DNA of 64,000 bases from Comamonas terrae (GTDB lineage Bacteria; Pseudomonadota; Gammaproteobacteria; Burkholderiales; Burkholderiaceae_C), in assembly GCF_001544075.1 (NCBI RefSeq), contig NZ_BCNT01000001.1, positions 558,001 to 622,000 on the forward strand, read 5' to 3'. Both the position numbers and the translations under genes were made by a program. Positions within the stretch are counted from its first letter, which is position 1. Each line of letters starts with the position of its first letter. Under the pieces are notes generated by a model. It worked only from the letters and a program-made list of their open reading frames with translations. It did not search any database and had not been told where the DNA came from. Shown piece after piece: positions 16,243 to 42,378 of the stretch.

Positions 16243-16319
16243 TGGGGTGGCTGATGGGACTCGAACCCACGACAACAGGAATCACAATCCTGGACTCTAC
16301 CAACTGAGCTACAGCCACC
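16243..16319 (-). tRNA. tRNA-His (GTG), copy 2
   Basis: This is a full cloverleaf on the minus strand: acceptor GGTGGCTG/CAGCCACC with encoded CCA, the D-arm AGCTCAGTTGG, anticodon loop ATTGTGATT (anticodon GTG) and the T-arm with TTCGAGT. Its sequence is identical to the copy at 16431-16507. The encoded first G provides the G-1 identity base of tRNA-His. Confidence 0.97.
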
Positions 16320-16393
16320 GTAGAAGCAATGATTCTACTGTAAAAACATCGCCTTTCGAGGCTTGCAAAGCAAGTACGACTTTTGGCAATGTA

Positions 16394-16423
16394 AAACGCC
16401 TCATGGTGCATGAGGCGTTTTTT
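16394..16423. terminator. Hairpin between the two tRNA-His genes
   Basis: AAACGCCTCA and TGAGGCGTTT flank loop TGGTGCA. The T-run is strong in the + direction and weaker in the direction of tRNA transcription, so read-through to the second copy is possible. Confidence 0.75.
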
Positions 16424-16430
16424 TCTGATC

Positions 16431-16507
16431 TGGGGTGGCTGATGGGACTCGAACCCACGACAACAGGAATCACAATCCTGGACTCTACCAACTGAGCTAC
16501 AGCCACC
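16431..16507 (-). tRNA. tRNA-His (GTG), copy 1
   Basis: This copy is identical in sequence to the one at 16243-16319, with encoded CCA. A TACAAT -10-like box lies about 12 bases upstream of the 5' end (16520-16525 read on the minus strand). Confidence 0.97.
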
Positions 16508-33316: not shown

Positions 33317-35950
33317 TTACTTCTTCAGCAGATGCTTGAGCGCATTCTGCAGGCGGCGGGCCGAGGCTTCGTCGCGGGCGCTGGCCAGTACCTGCGCTGC
33401 ATCCTGGCCCCAGGTTTCCTGGGGCGAAGGATCGTTGCGGCGCGTGAGCATCTGCAGTTGCAGCGCGCGGCGGGCGGCCAGCTGGTCGGCCGGCGTGGGC
33501 ACGTCGGCGGCCATTTCCAGGCGCAGCAGCGCCTGCGAAGCATCACCCTTGGGAGCGGATGCAATGGCCTGGGACCAGGCAGAACGCACAGGTGCCGTCA
33601 CGCGGCCGCCCAGTTGCTGGGCCGAAGGCAGTTGCGACGCATCGCGCGCTTCCCAGGCGCTCATCAGCTGGCTCAGCGCCTCGCCGTGGGCCTGGGCCGC
33701 CAGCTTGCGCAAGGCTTCCTGGGCATGCTCCATGGCCTCGCGCTGGGCGCGGAAGGCCGGATCGGCCAGGCGCGGACCGCGCTCCTCGCGGGCGAAGTCA
33801 CGCCCGCCGCGGCCGGCATCGCGGCCACGCTCGCCACCGCGGGCATCGCGACCACGGCCGGCATCCCTGCGGTCGCCGGGACGGCCTGCACCGGGACGGC
33901 CGGAGACAGCGGCTGCCGCATCCTTTTTCATGCCGGGGCGGTCGTCGCCACGCACGGCCACGACGGAACGGGCAGGCTGGGCCGGTGCTTGCGTTTCCGA
34001 AGCGTCGGACGCTTGCTCCGTCTGGCTTTGCGCCTGATTCTGCTGCGCGTCTGCGACGGCCTGGCTCTTGAGCACGGATTCGAGCTCGGCCATGGCTGCG
34101 CGGATCTGCTGCGCATCGCCGCTGGCATTGGCCGCCTCGACGGCCTTCGAAGCTTCCAGCACGCGGCGATCGCGTTCGGACAGCTCGGCTGCGGCACGCG
34201 GGCCGCGCTCGCTGCCCTTGCGGTTGAAGGCTTCGTCCAGCGGCTTGCGGAAGGCATCCCACAACTTTTGCTCGTGCTTGCGGTCCAGCGGCACGGCCTG
34301 GGCCTCGGCCTGCCAGCGCTGCTGCAGGGCCTTGACGGCATCGATGCGCAGGCTGGGCGCAGCGCCCAGGGCCGTGGCTTCTTCGATCATGGCATGGCGG
34401 CGCTGCAGGCTGGCCTTTTGCGCGGCATGCAGCGGCGCTTCGGCTGCAGCCATGGCCTGCTTGAACAGCGGCTGCAATTCGGCAAACAGCTTTTCGCCGA
34501 TGTGGCCGCTCTCGCGCCAGCGCTCGGCAAACTGCCGCAGCGCGCGGGCCATGCCCTTCCAGTCTTCGCTGGCGGCATGCTCGGCCGCCCAGGCCTTGAT
34601 TTCCTCGATCAGGGCCAGGCGCAGGGCCTTGGCCTGGCTGCTGTCCTGGCGCACCTTCTCATGCCAGGCCTCGACAACCTTGTAGGCCGCGTTGCAGGCC
34701 TCGTCGAACTTCTTCCACAGCGCATGGTTGGCCACCGCACCCTGGTCGGCCTGCTTCCACTGCTCGCGCAGGCTGCGCAGGGTTTCCTGGATCTTGCGGC
34801 CGCCCAGGGCCTGGCCTTCAGGGCGGTTGATCAGGCCTTCGGCCTTGGCCACCAGCTCCTCGCGCAGCTTGTCGGCATTCTGGCGCTGCCAGCCTTCGGC
34901 TTCGCCGGCAGCCACCAGGGCTTCGTGCACTTCGCTCACCAGCGCGTCGTCCACAAAGCGGCCATGGGACTTGATGGCGGCGCGCATGGCCTGCACGGCG
35001 GCAGAGCCGGCCTTGCCGGCAGCGGTTTCTTCCTTGAGAGCCTGCAGCGCCTGTCCGATGGCGGCCTTGGCGGCTTCCACCTGCTCGGGCGAAGGCTTGC
35101 CTCGGCCGCCGGCTGCGGCACGGCCCGCAGCTGCGGGCTTGGCGGCTTCCGCAGGCGCAGCCTCGGGCGGCAGGCCGCGCGCCACGCGGATCTCATCGGC
35201 CCATACGGGCACCGTGGGCAACGGCGCGTTCTCGTCGGCGGCCGCCGCTTCGGTCTGGGCCAGTGCGGACTGGAAGGCTTCCCAGACCAGGGTCAGCTGT
35301 GCCGAGGCGGCTTCCAGCTGGGGCGGGAAACGGGCATCCACGCTGCTCCAGCTGGCATCGCCGGTCAGCTCACCGGCCTGCTCCTGCCAGCGGCCCACGT
35401 CGGCGCGCAGCGCTTCCAGCGCGGCCTGGGCATCGCGCCAGGACTTGGTGGACAGTACCTCGATACGCTGCGCCAGCAGCAGGGCCACTTCGCGCTGCAC
35501 CTGGGTGCGGTGCTGCAGGTCTTCCACCGCCTTCACGCGCTCGGCCAGTTGGGCCTTGAACTGCGACAGCGGCTCGCGCGACAGCGCCGCACCGGCCTTG
35601 GCCGCATCACGCTGCCAGGCAGCTGCAGCGGCGGCATCGAAAGGCGTGGCCGACAGCAGGGCCTGGGCCTTCTCGGCCCATTCCACGGAGATTTTTTCCT
35701 GGTTTTCGGTACGGCGGATCTCGTCCAGGCGCTCGCGCACCGCACGAGCCGCGCTCTTGTCGCGCGCGCTCAGTTCCTTGAGAACGTCCTGGAGCTGCTC
35801 CACCGAAGGCTGGGTCGCGAGCCATTCGCGGATGCGCGCGGCGCGGTCGCCCGAGGTTTCGGCGGAGAAAGCGCCACCCGTCAATGCATCCAGCGGATGT
35901 TGCTCAGAATTCTTGCTGGGAGCTGGGTTCACTTCGGGTGCATCGGACAT
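33317..35950 (-). CDS. Large DUF349 repeat protein
   Basis: The start is taken at MSDAPEVNPAP (35950, 877 aa); an ATG at 35977 is in frame and neither has a clear ribosome binding site. The protein is Ala-rich and mostly helical, with several DUF349-type units recognisable by W-x-x-x-G-like helices (LRKEQWKQADQ-like, ERWRESGHIGEKLFAEL, KKFDEACNAAYKVVEAWHEK in part). Residues ~690-760 are a low-complexity Arg/Gly/Asp segment (GRDARGGERGRDAGRGGRD) reminiscent of RNA-binding RGG tracts. A globular helical end follows. The function of DUF349 proteins is not established. It is probably cytoplasmic. Confidence 0.85.
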   Translation of the reverse strand: MSDAPEVNPAPSKNSEQHPLDALTGGAFSAETSGDRAARIREWLATQPSVEQLQDVLKELSARDKSAARAVRERLDEIRRTENQEKISVEWAEKAQALLSATPFDAAAAAAWQRDAAKAGAALSREPLSQFKAQLAERVKAVEDLQHRTQVQREVALLLAQRIEVLSTKSWRDAQAALEALRADVGRWQEQAGELTGDASWSSVDARFPPQLEAASAQLTLVWEAFQSALAQTEAAAADENAPLPTVPVWADEIRVARGLPPEAAPAEAAKPAAAGRAAAGGRGKPSPEQVEAAKAAIGQALQALKEETAAGKAGSAAVQAMRAAIKSHGRFVDDALVSEVHEALVAAGEAEGWQRQNADKLREELVAKAEGLINRPEGQALGGRKIQETLRSLREQWKQADQGAVANHALWKKFDEACNAAYKVVEAWHEKVRQDSSQAKALRLALIEEIKAWAAEHAASEDWKGMARALRQFAERWRESGHIGEKLFAELQPLFKQAMAAAEAPLHAAQKASLQRRHAMIEEATALGAAPSLRIDAVKALQQRWQAEAQAVPLDRKHEQKLWDAFRKPLDEAFNRKGSERGPRAAAELSERDRRVLEASKAVEAANASGDAQQIRAAMAELESVLKSQAVADAQQNQAQSQTEQASDASETQAPAQPARSVVAVRGDDRPGMKKDAAAAVSGRPGAGRPGDRRDAGRGRDARGGERGRDAGRGGRDFAREERGPRLADPAFRAQREAMEHAQEALRKLAAQAHGEALSQLMSAWEARDASQLPSAQQLGGRVTAPVRSAWSQAIASAPKGDASQALLRLEMAADVPTPADQLAARRALQLQMLTRRNDPSPQETWGQDAAQVLASARDEASARRLQNALKHLLKK

Positions 35951-36253
35951 GGTGCTGCGAGGAGGAATAGATGACATGTACTGATAAAGGAATGCTTGCT
36001 GTCCGCTCCGACGGGAGCGTGGCAACCATTGCCAGCCTATATGGGGGCATATGGAGCAAGCGCAAGCCTGGACGCGGCCGCGTCCGGGCAAAGGCGTATT
36101 TTCGCCGTTATTTGCGGCTCGGCCAAAAAACGCCGGAATAAGCGTGCCGTTCCTAGCGGCATGGCCGGCAGGAAGGTACAGCGTACCAAAGTCGGGTCGG
36201 CCGCTGCCGCTGCCTGACCTTTGGGCAGGGAGAAAGGCGCGGGCCTTTCCCGA
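35951..36253. other. Spacer between the DUF349 and DUF748 genes
   Basis: No gene is seen. On the minus strand a weak hairpin (GAAAGGC/GCCTTTC, 36232-36249) follows the DUF748 stop. The rest must include the DUF349 promoter. Confidence 0.45.
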
Positions 36254-40153: not shown

Positions 40154-40457
40154 GAGAGATAGGAAATGGCAAAGAACTCGGGGCAGGCAGGCCCGGCCTC
40201 GGGGCAGCGGCGGGCCGGTACGCAAGCAGGTCCGGCCATGGCGCAAATGTACTCTTTGCAGGCACCTTCAGGCAGGACAGGCGCGGTACCGCGCCGCTGA
40301 CGCGGCATACGGCGCAAAACGCTCTATATATAAGAGCGTGCAGCGGCTTTCCCTGGGAGTGTGCCTGCCATTGACAACCTGCACGGCCAAGGCACCCGGT
40401 GCAAATGCAAAAAATCTACAGAAGCCCGAGAAAGCAAAGCAGATGCCTCCAAACGAC

Positions 40458-40493
40458 AAAGCCCGGAAGCGGAGAAACCGGCTTCCGGGCTTT
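40458..40493. terminator. Perfect hairpin, bidirectional terminator-like
   Basis: AAAGCCCGGAAGC and GCTTCCGGGCTTT form a 13-bp perfect stem with a 10-base loop. T-runs are short on both sides. Confidence 0.65.
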
Positions 40494-40803
40494 ACGGCAA
40501 GTACCAGACTGTGCCGTTTTTCGCAGTCAAGGAGGGTGTGGTCCTTGCTGCTGGAAGCAAGAGATTGCTCCCTGGGGTGCCGCAGCGAAGTTGTAGAGCA
40601 AATGGCCGGGTAGAGTTCCCTGGCTGGGTTTGCCTTTCCCTTTCCTTTGGCAGTCACCTGCGATGTGCAGGTGGATTCACTATATCCCTGCAGATCCCGC
40701 CCAGCCAGGTTTTTTTCATTTTTTTGCGTTTTGATGACAAACCCGGCAATGTGAGCATCCACACCGCTTGAACAGAGCGATTTGCGGCCTTGGAAATTCA
40801 AAC

Positions 40804-40823
40804 AACTGTATTCATATACAGTT
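40804..40823. promoter_or_regulatory. LexA (SOS) box
   Basis: AACTGTATTCATATACAGTT matches CTGT-N8-ACAG perfectly, with 8-bp symmetrical arms. On the minus strand a perfect TATAAT (40826-40831) lies next to it, and on the + strand TATTAT/TATAAA follows it. Either direction could be repressed by LexA. No coding gene is obviously controlled. Confidence 0.7.
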
Positions 40824-40863
40824 TTATTATAAATTTAAAGTATAAAAACCAAGGTTGTTAGTG

Positions 40864-40893
40864 TTGACCTAATATTTAGCCCCCCCCTAGAAT
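40864..40893 (+). promoter_or_regulatory. Promoter-like pair TTGACC-N18-TAGAAT
   Basis: TTGACC (40864-40869) and TAGAAT (40888-40893) are separated by 18 bases that include eight Cs. Transcription from it would meet a terminator within about 15 bases, so it may instead be part of a transcript starting upstream, or a promoter whose gene was lost. Confidence 0.4.
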
Positions 40894-40898
40894 CCGCC

Positions 40899-40921
40899 AG
40901 CGCTCGAATAGAGCGTTTTTT
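40899..40921 (+). terminator. First of two tandem + strand terminators
   Basis: AGCGCTC and GAGCGTT pair around GAATA and are followed by a run of six Ts (40916-40921). Confidence 0.75.
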
Positions 40922-40951
40922 GTTTCCGCTGCCTCACGACTGAGCAGATCT

Positions 40952-40979
40952 GCAAACGCCCTCTGCGGGCTTTTTTTGC
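40952..40979 (+). terminator. Second of two tandem + strand terminators
   Basis: GCAAA-C-GCCC pairs with GGGC-TTTGC-type sequence and carries seven Ts. It stops transcription before the transglycosylase gene at 41079. Confidence 0.65.
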
Positions 40980-41078
40980 GGATCCGCAGCGTACCTCATC
41001 AAGGGTGAGTCTTCGGCCTTGCATCGCGCACCCGCTGCGCCTGCCCTGGGCTGACACCGCCGCTAGAAAGGACAAGCT

Positions 41079-42056
41079 ATGCCAGCGTCAGGAAAATTTG
41101 TCGCCTCCGCGCGCACGTTGGGCCATCAGGTGGCCAACGGTTTTCTTGCTCTCACTCACAACGGCTTCGCCCTGCTGGGCCTGGCCGTGGCCATTGCGGC
41201 CCTTACTCTGATCTCCCGCCCCGACCTGCGCCAGGCCGGCGAGGCCCAGCTGCGCCAGTGGCTGGACCAGCGCCACCCCCAGGCCCTGGCCGCTGCGCCG
41301 GCGCCGGCCGCCAATTCGCTGGCTCAGCCGGTCGTTGCCAGCGACCGCGCCACCGCAGCCAACCCCAAGGCCCTGCCCAAGGAACAGGCCGCCGTGGCCT
41401 ACTGGCTCAGCAAGAAATACCGCGTCGCGCCCGAGCCCATCGCCGCCCTGGTCAGCGCCGCCTACGAGCAAGGCAAGGCCAACAAGCTCGACCCCACGCT
41501 GATCCTGGCCATCATGGCCATCGAATCGAGCTTCAACCCGTTTGCCCAGAGCACCGTCGGCGCCCAGGGCCTGATGCAGGTCATGACCTCGGTGCACACC
41601 GACAAGTACGAAAGCTTCGGTGGCCAGCATGCGGCTTTCGACCCGGTGACCAACCTCAAGGTCGGCGTCAAGGTGCTCAAGGAATGCATTGCGCGTGCCG
41701 GCTCCATCGAAGGCGGTCTGCGCTACTACGTGGGCGCAGCCAACCTCGAAAGCGATGGCGGCTATGCCGCCAAGGTGCTGGCCGAGCACCAGCGCCTGCG
41801 CCTGGCTGCCGGCCTGCGCGCCGAATCGGTGATGACCGCCAAGGTCGCGACACCGGTCCAGAAAGCCAGGCCTGCTGCCGTGGCCACCAAGGACGACTCC
41901 GTTCCCCCGCCGGCTGCCGACCTGAACGCCAAGCCCGTGGCCGGTGCCATCGCCCCGGCCGCCACGCTGGCACTGGCGCAGGCCGGGCAGAAAGCCAAGA
42001 TCGGCGCCACCATCACCCACGCGGAACAGGTGGCGCTGGCCGAACCCAAGATCTGA
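41079..42056 (+). CDS. SLT-family lytic transglycosylase
   Basis: The start is ATG 41079 with AAAGGA upstream (325 aa). A hydrophobic segment at ~25-50 (GFALLGLAVAIAALTLIS) anchors it or serves as an uncleaved signal. The transglycosylase domain at ~125-245 has the catalytic Glu in IMAIESSFNPFAQS, then VGAQGLMQVM and LRYYVGAANL. The last ~80 residues are an Ala/Pro/Lys-rich tail. It cuts peptidoglycan between MurNAc and GlcNAc. It is a single gene between terminators. Confidence 0.93.
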   Translation: MPASGKFVASARTLGHQVANGFLALTHNGFALLGLAVAIAALTLISRPDLRQAGEAQLRQWLDQRHPQALAAAPAPAANSLAQPVVASDRATAANPKALPKEQAAVAYWLSKKYRVAPEPIAALVSAAYEQGKANKLDPTLILAIMAIESSFNPFAQSTVGAQGLMQVMTSVHTDKYESFGGQHAAFDPVTNLKVGVKVLKECIARAGSIEGGLRYYVGAANLESDGGYAAKVLAEHQRLRLAAGLRAESVMTAKVATPVQKARPAAVATKDDSVPPPAADLNAKPVAGAIAPAATLALAQAGQKAKIGATITHAEQVALAEPKI

Positions 42057-42111: not shown

Positions 42112-42187
42112 ATTTTGGCGGCAGGTCCGCGCCCGGGCGAACAGCCCGCAGGCAGCCGGCCCGTGCCAGCTCAGCTACACTAGCGGA

Positions 42188-42340
42188 TGTACGCAACTGG
42201 CGATAGGCGCAGCTTCCTCTGGGGCTGCCGCTGACGTGGAAACCGACGGATGGGCTTTCATCTGTAACCACCGGGGAGCGTACCGCCCAGGGCCTGCGCG
42301 ATTGGGACCTGCAAGCGTTTCAGCCGTTCGCCTGGGCAGC
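42188..42340 (+). ncRNA. ZTP (pfl) riboswitch candidate upstream of glyA
   Basis: Conserved pieces are in order: AACTGGCG, GTGGAAACC, AACCACCGGGGAGCGT, then a variable linker, and GCCGTTCGCCTGGGCA. This is the pattern of the pfl/ZTP riboswitch, which senses the purine intermediate ZMP/ZTP when one-carbon units run short. ACGC near the 5' end can pair with GCGT closing the first domain. glyA, directly downstream, supplies one-carbon folate and is a known target class. Exact ends are approximate. Confidence 0.75.
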
Positions 42341-42378
42341 CCTTGGCCTCAAGGGAATTTCAAGTTCACAGGACTGCC

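Follow-up and report, generated by a model that had tools for sequence, protein, structure and literature searches.

SOS antisense RNAs of the IstR/tisB type are part of the SOS network and are cis-encoded against a toxin mRNA. The RNA described here would resemble them in its proposed SOS membership and would differ in that no toxin-mRNA partner was noticed when its own locus was inspected for other features. The Betaproteobacteria toxic small RNA (RF02278), which is said to be under LexA control, is likewise a small RNA of these bacteria, with matches in 52 of 53 Comamonas genomes. In the genome studied here it matches at C3 and C18 and not at the locus of the present RNA, and the palindrome CTGT-N8-ACAG was absent from all four RF02278 loci inspected in fetched DNA. 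The nearest functional analogue known to us is DinR of Klebsiella, a LexA-controlled, trans-acting sRNA of the SOS response that arises by cleavage from the dinI mRNA 3′ end and represses ftsZ (PMC10907235). DinR thus derives from an mRNA, whereas the Comamonas RNA seems to have its own gene, and no conserved frame was seen between the LexA box and the terminator.

We analyzed a 64 kb stretch of Comamonas terrae DNA (the window), in which a sequence-only reading had proposed an SOS-controlled small RNA in an AT-rich island. That proposal finds support on the minus strand, where it had been mentioned only in passing, and not on the plus strand, where it had mainly been placed. The reading we favor, with a probability of about 0.8, is a stand-alone, LexA-repressed small RNA encoded on the minus strand, probably with a second, LexA-independent promoter, that would act in trans. 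The island is the ~925-nt gap separating two divergent ORFs; it had been described as having no coding gene on either side, but an AsmA-like ORF (minus strand) and a lytic-transglycosylase-like ORF (plus strand) flank it. Both names are given by sequence likeness, and both ORFs have relatives adjoining the RNA in other genera. The features of the locus are as follows.

Minus strand, beginning ~300 nt beyond the terminator of the RNA in the window: AsmA-like ORF
40452-40590, minus strand: 3′ domain of the RNA, the stretch covered by matches to covariance models R1 and R2
40458-40493, minus strand: terminator hairpin AAAGCCCGG..CCGGGCUUU, predicted 3′ end of the RNA; 99.3% paired
40494-40517, minus strand: hairpin H3, ACGGC..GCCGU; 95.1% of cells paired in the outer stem and 66.3% in the inner one
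40523-40551, minus strand: hairpin H2 with a C-rich apical loop; 76.4% of cells paired, lower part poorly aligned
40553-40572, minus strand: hairpin H1, GGGAGCAAUCUCUUGCUUCC; GCAA/UUGC core almost invariant, outer pairs covarying, 99.0% of cells paired
40655-40673, minus strand: 5′ hairpin of the RNA, CACCTGC..GCAGGTG, covarying within the genus
40679-40684, minus strand: candidate promoter P2 with -10 TATAGT, in a block conserved across part of the genus
40806-40821, minus strand: LexA (SOS) box CTGT-N8-ACAG, palindrome CTGTATTCATATACAG, directly downstream of the putative P1 of the RNA gene
40826-40831, minus strand: alternative P1 -10, TATAAT, 4 nt before the LexA box and with no clear -35
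40867-40839, minus strand: best candidate for promoter P1, TCAACA-17-TATACT
40864-40893, plus strand: promoter TTGACC-18-TAGAAT, a scan hit that belongs to the transglycosylase gene and lies outside the RNA gene
40899-40917, plus strand: 5′ hairpin of the predicted transglycosylase transcript, earlier taken for the first of two terminators
41079-42056, plus strand: lytic-transglycosylase-like gene, divergent and conserved neighbor of the RNA

A conserved, covarying RNA on the minus strand

The sequence-only reading had suggested, as an aside, an RNA on this strand with its end at 40458. A strong hairpin does end near there, and a conserved, covarying structured RNA was found. The predicted gene comprises H1-H3 with the terminator (40458-40572) and a 5′ part reaching to ~40684, and the fold z-score is -5.6 for 40456-40684 and -4.35 for 40456-40820. 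The U-tract of the terminator is short in Comamonas. The family alignment covers the 3′ domain only and holds 91 sequences (90 distinct), with a structure hand-written from two family members. Over the 91 sequences, 89.1% of cells are paired, and 31-51% when the partners are slid by 1-3 columns. Both sides changed in 24 of the 36 pairs, giving 233 such cells vs. a mean of 79 after shuffling, a number that none of 500 shuffles reached. The minus-strand locus thus holds a covarying structure, as expected of a structured RNA. The motif CUCC occurs in the 3′ side of H2 in 76 of the 91 sequences, and CUCUCC in 32, partly within the stem. For the 5′ hairpin, a family-wide test gave 44 of 68 against shuffles with a mean of 34 and a largest value of 42, which is no clear separation.

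If the locus were transcribed under SOS control, its transcript might code for a small TisB-like peptide. The minus strand does have short frames, such as those of 20-45 codons close to the box in some Comamonas, but no listed frame is common to all 29 genus loci, and the most widespread one (21 loci) overlaps the -10 of P2 and is cut short in the window. Furthermore, many single-base indels are found in the conserved 3′ part, and such indels between species argue against coding. A coding transcript is therefore regarded as very improbable.

At the RNA, all families of Rfam release 15 stay below their gathering scores, both in the window and in the loci of 34 relatives, thus the RNA would deserve an entry whatever its function. 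Two described RNAs, anti-hemB and sR035, match its 3′ part weakly and far below their cut-offs: sR035 (RF02760), with a cut-off of 233 bits, reaches 23.4 bits in the window and, among 14 loci, 26.4 bits in L023 alone, and anti-hemB (RF02837) scores 30.8 bits in L064 (one of 20 loci), with a cut-off of 49.5 bits. These two and the weaker, chance-like matches from permissive Rfam scans, all under cut-off, were rejected. For 6S RNA (RF00013), no match was found in the genome at E ≤ 0.001, with the control matched in 5 of 14 genomes. A literature search returned no paper recognizable, by its title or the opening of its abstract, as a description of the RNA, which is weak evidence, as subscription papers fall mostly outside its scope. 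At gathering score, the window holds three tRNAs and one ZTP riboswitch and nothing else. The ZMP/ZTP riboswitch (RF01750, 42.7 bits) lies at 42183-42344 on the plus strand, directly before a glyA-like gene at 42343, and is also present in several relatives; a tandem tRNA-His pair, both with anticodon gtg, lies at 16243-16506 on the minus strand.

When the DNA of 40440-41080 was used as a query, 29 of 53 Comamonas genomes were matched, some by short pieces only. The covariance model R1, built from the 29 genus sequences, had matches at E ≤ 0.01 in 94 of the 299 genomes of the family. R2, built from the 91 sequences, matched 122 of the 299, in 63 of 141 genera, at E ≤ 1e-4, with one match each at that cut-off and many matches being its own members; within the genus, it matched 33 of 53 genomes at E ≤ 0.01 (31 strong, 2 weak). 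More than half of the family genomes have no match. Among 300 genomes of the order, seven outside the family were matched, only at E-values of 7.8e-4 to 9e-3, and these are taken as chance by E-value alone. The RNA does not, on these matches, appear convincingly present beyond the family.

Of 70 fetched loci, 68 have the transglycosylase gene upstream of the RNA and divergent from it. On the downstream side, an AsmA-like match is present in 49 of the 70, the one in L120 being a fragment. Among the other 21 loci, two end at the contig end and 19 were inspected; by eye, a gene related to ORF 33317-36091, the next one in the window, starts in 14 of the 19, and L128 has an opposite-strand gene downstream of the RNA. 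These counts can be compared with what one would expect if the RNA were not a trans-acting sRNA but the 5′ leader, attenuator or riboswitch-like, of the same-strand AsmA-like gene. Such a leader could explain the shared strand, the terminator-ended form ~300 nt before the AsmA-like ORF, the strong nucleotide conservation and the 49 loci with an AsmA-like match. However, the downstream gene varies between loci, and the terminator is 99.3% paired (a single hand-written fold being considered). Conservation of the RNA while the downstream gene changes argues against a leader of one gene and favors action in trans, and we find the leader improbable. A separate gene would also fit the terminator and the candidate P1, both recognized by sequence, and the variable downstream gene.

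Plus-strand elements of the transglycosylase gene

The sequence-only reading had placed its SOS-controlled small RNA on the plus strand, between 40893 and 40980, with two plus-strand terminators following the LexA box. The promoter-like site TTGACC-18-TAGAAT is indeed present at 40864-40893, and a terminator-like hairpin with a T-run follows at 40899-40917; the second terminator falls below the scan threshold. The promoter needs no extra RNA, because the transglycosylase ORF at 41079 lies downstream of it. Its TTGAC and TAGAAT are identical across 29 aligned Comamonas loci, and a strict pattern for the transglycosylase promoter was matched in 50 of 70 family loci. The hairpin begins within ~10 nt of the expected first base of the transcript, and the T-run after it is confined to part of the genus. 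These elements are best understood as the conserved promoter and the 5′ hairpin of the divergent transglycosylase gene. The run of eight Cs, thought to pair with ribosome-binding sites, sits in the spacer of this promoter and is missing from the other 28 aligned Comamonas loci, so that a non-conserved promoter spacer accounts for it. The LexA box lies 42 nt upstream of the -35 of the promoter, which also speaks against a plus-strand SOS RNA. A lost tRNA locus had been offered as another origin, and ARAGORN gives no tRNA at the site. Since the promoter and hairpin are those of the transglycosylase gene, the C8 run is not conserved and no tRNA is found, the plus-strand proposal fails, and we give it almost no credence.

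In the leader of the transglycosylase gene (40950-41000, plus strand), one Comamonas clade has a hairpin rich in GC with T's after it (GGCGCCCC..GGGGCGCTTTT), which was not observed in other clades. This clade-specific hairpin is a possible attenuator.

The LexA box and the minus-strand promoters

In the alignment, the minus strand reads in the order promoter-like blocks, LexA palindrome, a less conserved stretch, TATAGT, the 5′ hairpin, the three hairpins and the terminator. The best candidate for the first promoter is TCAACA-17-TATACT, the only minus-strand hit of the scan, which would place the box at about +12 to +27. Spacings from TCAA(C/T)A to a -10-like hexamer peak sharply at exactly 17 nt, the value found in 20 of the 29 genus loci and in 24 of the 46 loci outside the genus. 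The region is AT-rich, where -10 look-alikes abound, and of the 14 Comamonas loci that lack the RNA, 8 likewise carry a P1-like -10 at the same spacing, thus P1 is less tied to the RNA than the box is. The TATAAT that had been noted as abutting the box is present at 40826-40831 and is kept as the alternative; a -10-like hexamer at its offset occurs in 18 of 29 genus and 8 of 46 non-genus loci. The candidate P2 is put forward from conservation within the genus. Upstream of it (40708-40743, minus strand), inspection by eye showed a stretch resembling GTCATCAA..GCAATCAAATGCAAAA in Comamonas, and at the corresponding place in L077, L110, L122 and L127, in several other genera, an inverted element CAATCG..CATTGA followed by A-rich DNA was seen, also by eye. 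The element upstream of P2 is possibly a binding site for another regulator of the RNA.

The perfect LexA box noted earlier, CTGTATTCATATACAG at 40806-40821, is the sole CTGT-N8-ACAG in the window. By chance, 0.62 matches are expected in 64 kb, and at least one was present in 49 of 100 shuffles; the box alone is therefore not significant, and other evidence is needed. Such evidence comes from the comparison of loci. Among the 29 genus loci, the box in register matches 8/8 positions in 18, 7/8 in 3 and 6/8 in 8. Outside the genus, 12 of 66 loci have a perfect box at a distance of 150-330 nt before the model start; the same interval gave 0 for each of 11 permuted palindromes, and the box itself gave 0 at a displaced place. 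With one mismatch allowed, the box is found in 24 of the 66 loci and the permuted palindromes in 0-7, while in the one-mismatch control at the displaced place the palindrome TGCT reaches 15 of 66 and CTGT 1 of 66.

The position of the box was also measured from the transglycosylase promoter, in the 46 non-genus loci where this promoter was recognized, leaving out 20 further loci without a recognizable one. A box of at least 7/8 is found at offset 42 or 43 after the -35 in 16 of the 46, with a mean of 0.19 per offset. Eight of the 12 perfect non-genus boxes are in this 42/43 register, and those of L076, L103, L108 and L120 are outside the register or have no recognizable promoter. The remaining 30 of the 46 loci have no box of at least 7/8 in register, and the RNA is commoner than the box across loci. 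The absence of the box from these 30 loci suggests that SOS control is one input to the RNA, perhaps not the main one, and that its basic task hardly depends on SOS everywhere; the box may be an added or an often lost input.

Because the box keeps its distance to the transglycosylase promoter, one has to ask which gene it serves. Twenty Comamonas genomes, 16 of them without an R2 match, were searched for the transglycosylase gene, which was found in 19. In 15 of these 19 loci the RNA is absent by R2; the transglycosylase promoter pattern is present in 14 of the 15 and a box in register in one (L174). A box of at least 7/8 is thus found in 21 of 29 Comamonas loci with the RNA vs. 1 of 15 without it (P ~ 6e-5, Fisher's exact test, which ignores shared ancestry). 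Among the other loci, L168 and L169 contain the RNA, with boxes of 7/8 and 6/8, respectively, and L185 and L186 are matched more weakly by the RNA model and lack a box in register; with these four included, the same test, again ignoring shared ancestry, gives P = 1e-4. Within Comamonas, the LexA box is associated with the RNA more than with the transglycosylase gene. If the box instead served the divergent transglycosylase gene, or both genes, LexA would sit ~70 bp upstream of the transglycosylase start and tune that gene, and the RNA gene would be a bystander. The fixed spacing leaves a small chance of LexA acting there, as the box is 42-43 nt from the -35 even in L110 and L115, where it is ~390 nt from the RNA. 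But the box lies directly after the minus-strand promoter elements and far upstream of the plus-strand promoter, and 14 of the 15 Comamonas loci without the RNA keep the promoter while 1 of the 15 has the box. We consider transglycosylase control with the RNA as bystander quite unlikely. The exceptional locus L174 (Comamonas G025) has a perfect box in register beside the transglycosylase promoter and no RNA match by R2; its RNA may have diverged or been lost.

The same motif was followed through the genome. ACTGT-N8-ACAG gives 24 strand hits vs. 9 for the reversed control. In a Pfam scan of 10 ORFs near boxes, five were of SOS or repair types (SRAP, VRR-NUC/FAN1, methylguanine methyltransferase, radical-SAM and UmuD-like S24, each preceded by the motif), four had no family match and one (L038) was HlyD-type, i.e., non-SOS. 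By sequence, the box in the window stands at a predicted promoter and the same motif precedes SOS-type genes of the genome, as expected of a LexA regulon. Perfect palindromic SOS boxes were also observed at L036 (G000:C3:334705) and L044 (G000:C8:159229), and at both sites the single nearby ORF that was scanned matched no Pfam family; these are possible further uncharacterized SOS genes.

Proposed action and meaning of the RNA

For the stand-alone, LexA-repressed RNA that we prefer, transcription, start sites, LexA binding, induction and action in trans are inferred from the DNA, and the mechanism would run as follows. In undamaged cells, LexA bound at the box right after P1 would block P1. 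Upon DNA damage, RecA-triggered cleavage of LexA would free P1, and the transcript would run through H1, H2 and H3 to the terminator at 40458, giving an RNA of ~370 nt. The putative P2, near 40684, would yield a shorter basal form of ~220 nt without damage. In trans, the C-rich loop of H2 and its flank (CUCC, CUCUCC) might pair with the ribosome-binding sites of target mRNAs, and this pairing might adjust their translation during SOS. Such an anti-Shine-Dalgarno mode, with whatever targets it may have, is the simplest and our preferred one, and is suggested much more tentatively than the RNA itself; the near-invariant core of H1 would also fit a protein-binding site. For the ftsZ and ftsA starts as targets, a crude test gave a duplex signal no better than that of 41 gene starts of the window.

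SulA was found in none of 31 Comamonas genomes, with E. coli the sole match among 14 controls. This leaves room for another division checkpoint, and none is thereby shown. It is conceivable, though on balance we doubt it, that the RNA is a family-wide, LexA-operated effector of SOS in bacteria with no recognizable SulA, performing a damage-checkpoint task that is done by proteins elsewhere. The RNA can be followed further by its covariance model, by its fixed locus and by a simple test of induction. If our reading is true, this conserved RNA, free-standing and equipped with a LexA operator, would constitute an RNA arm of the SOS response in a large bacterial family.
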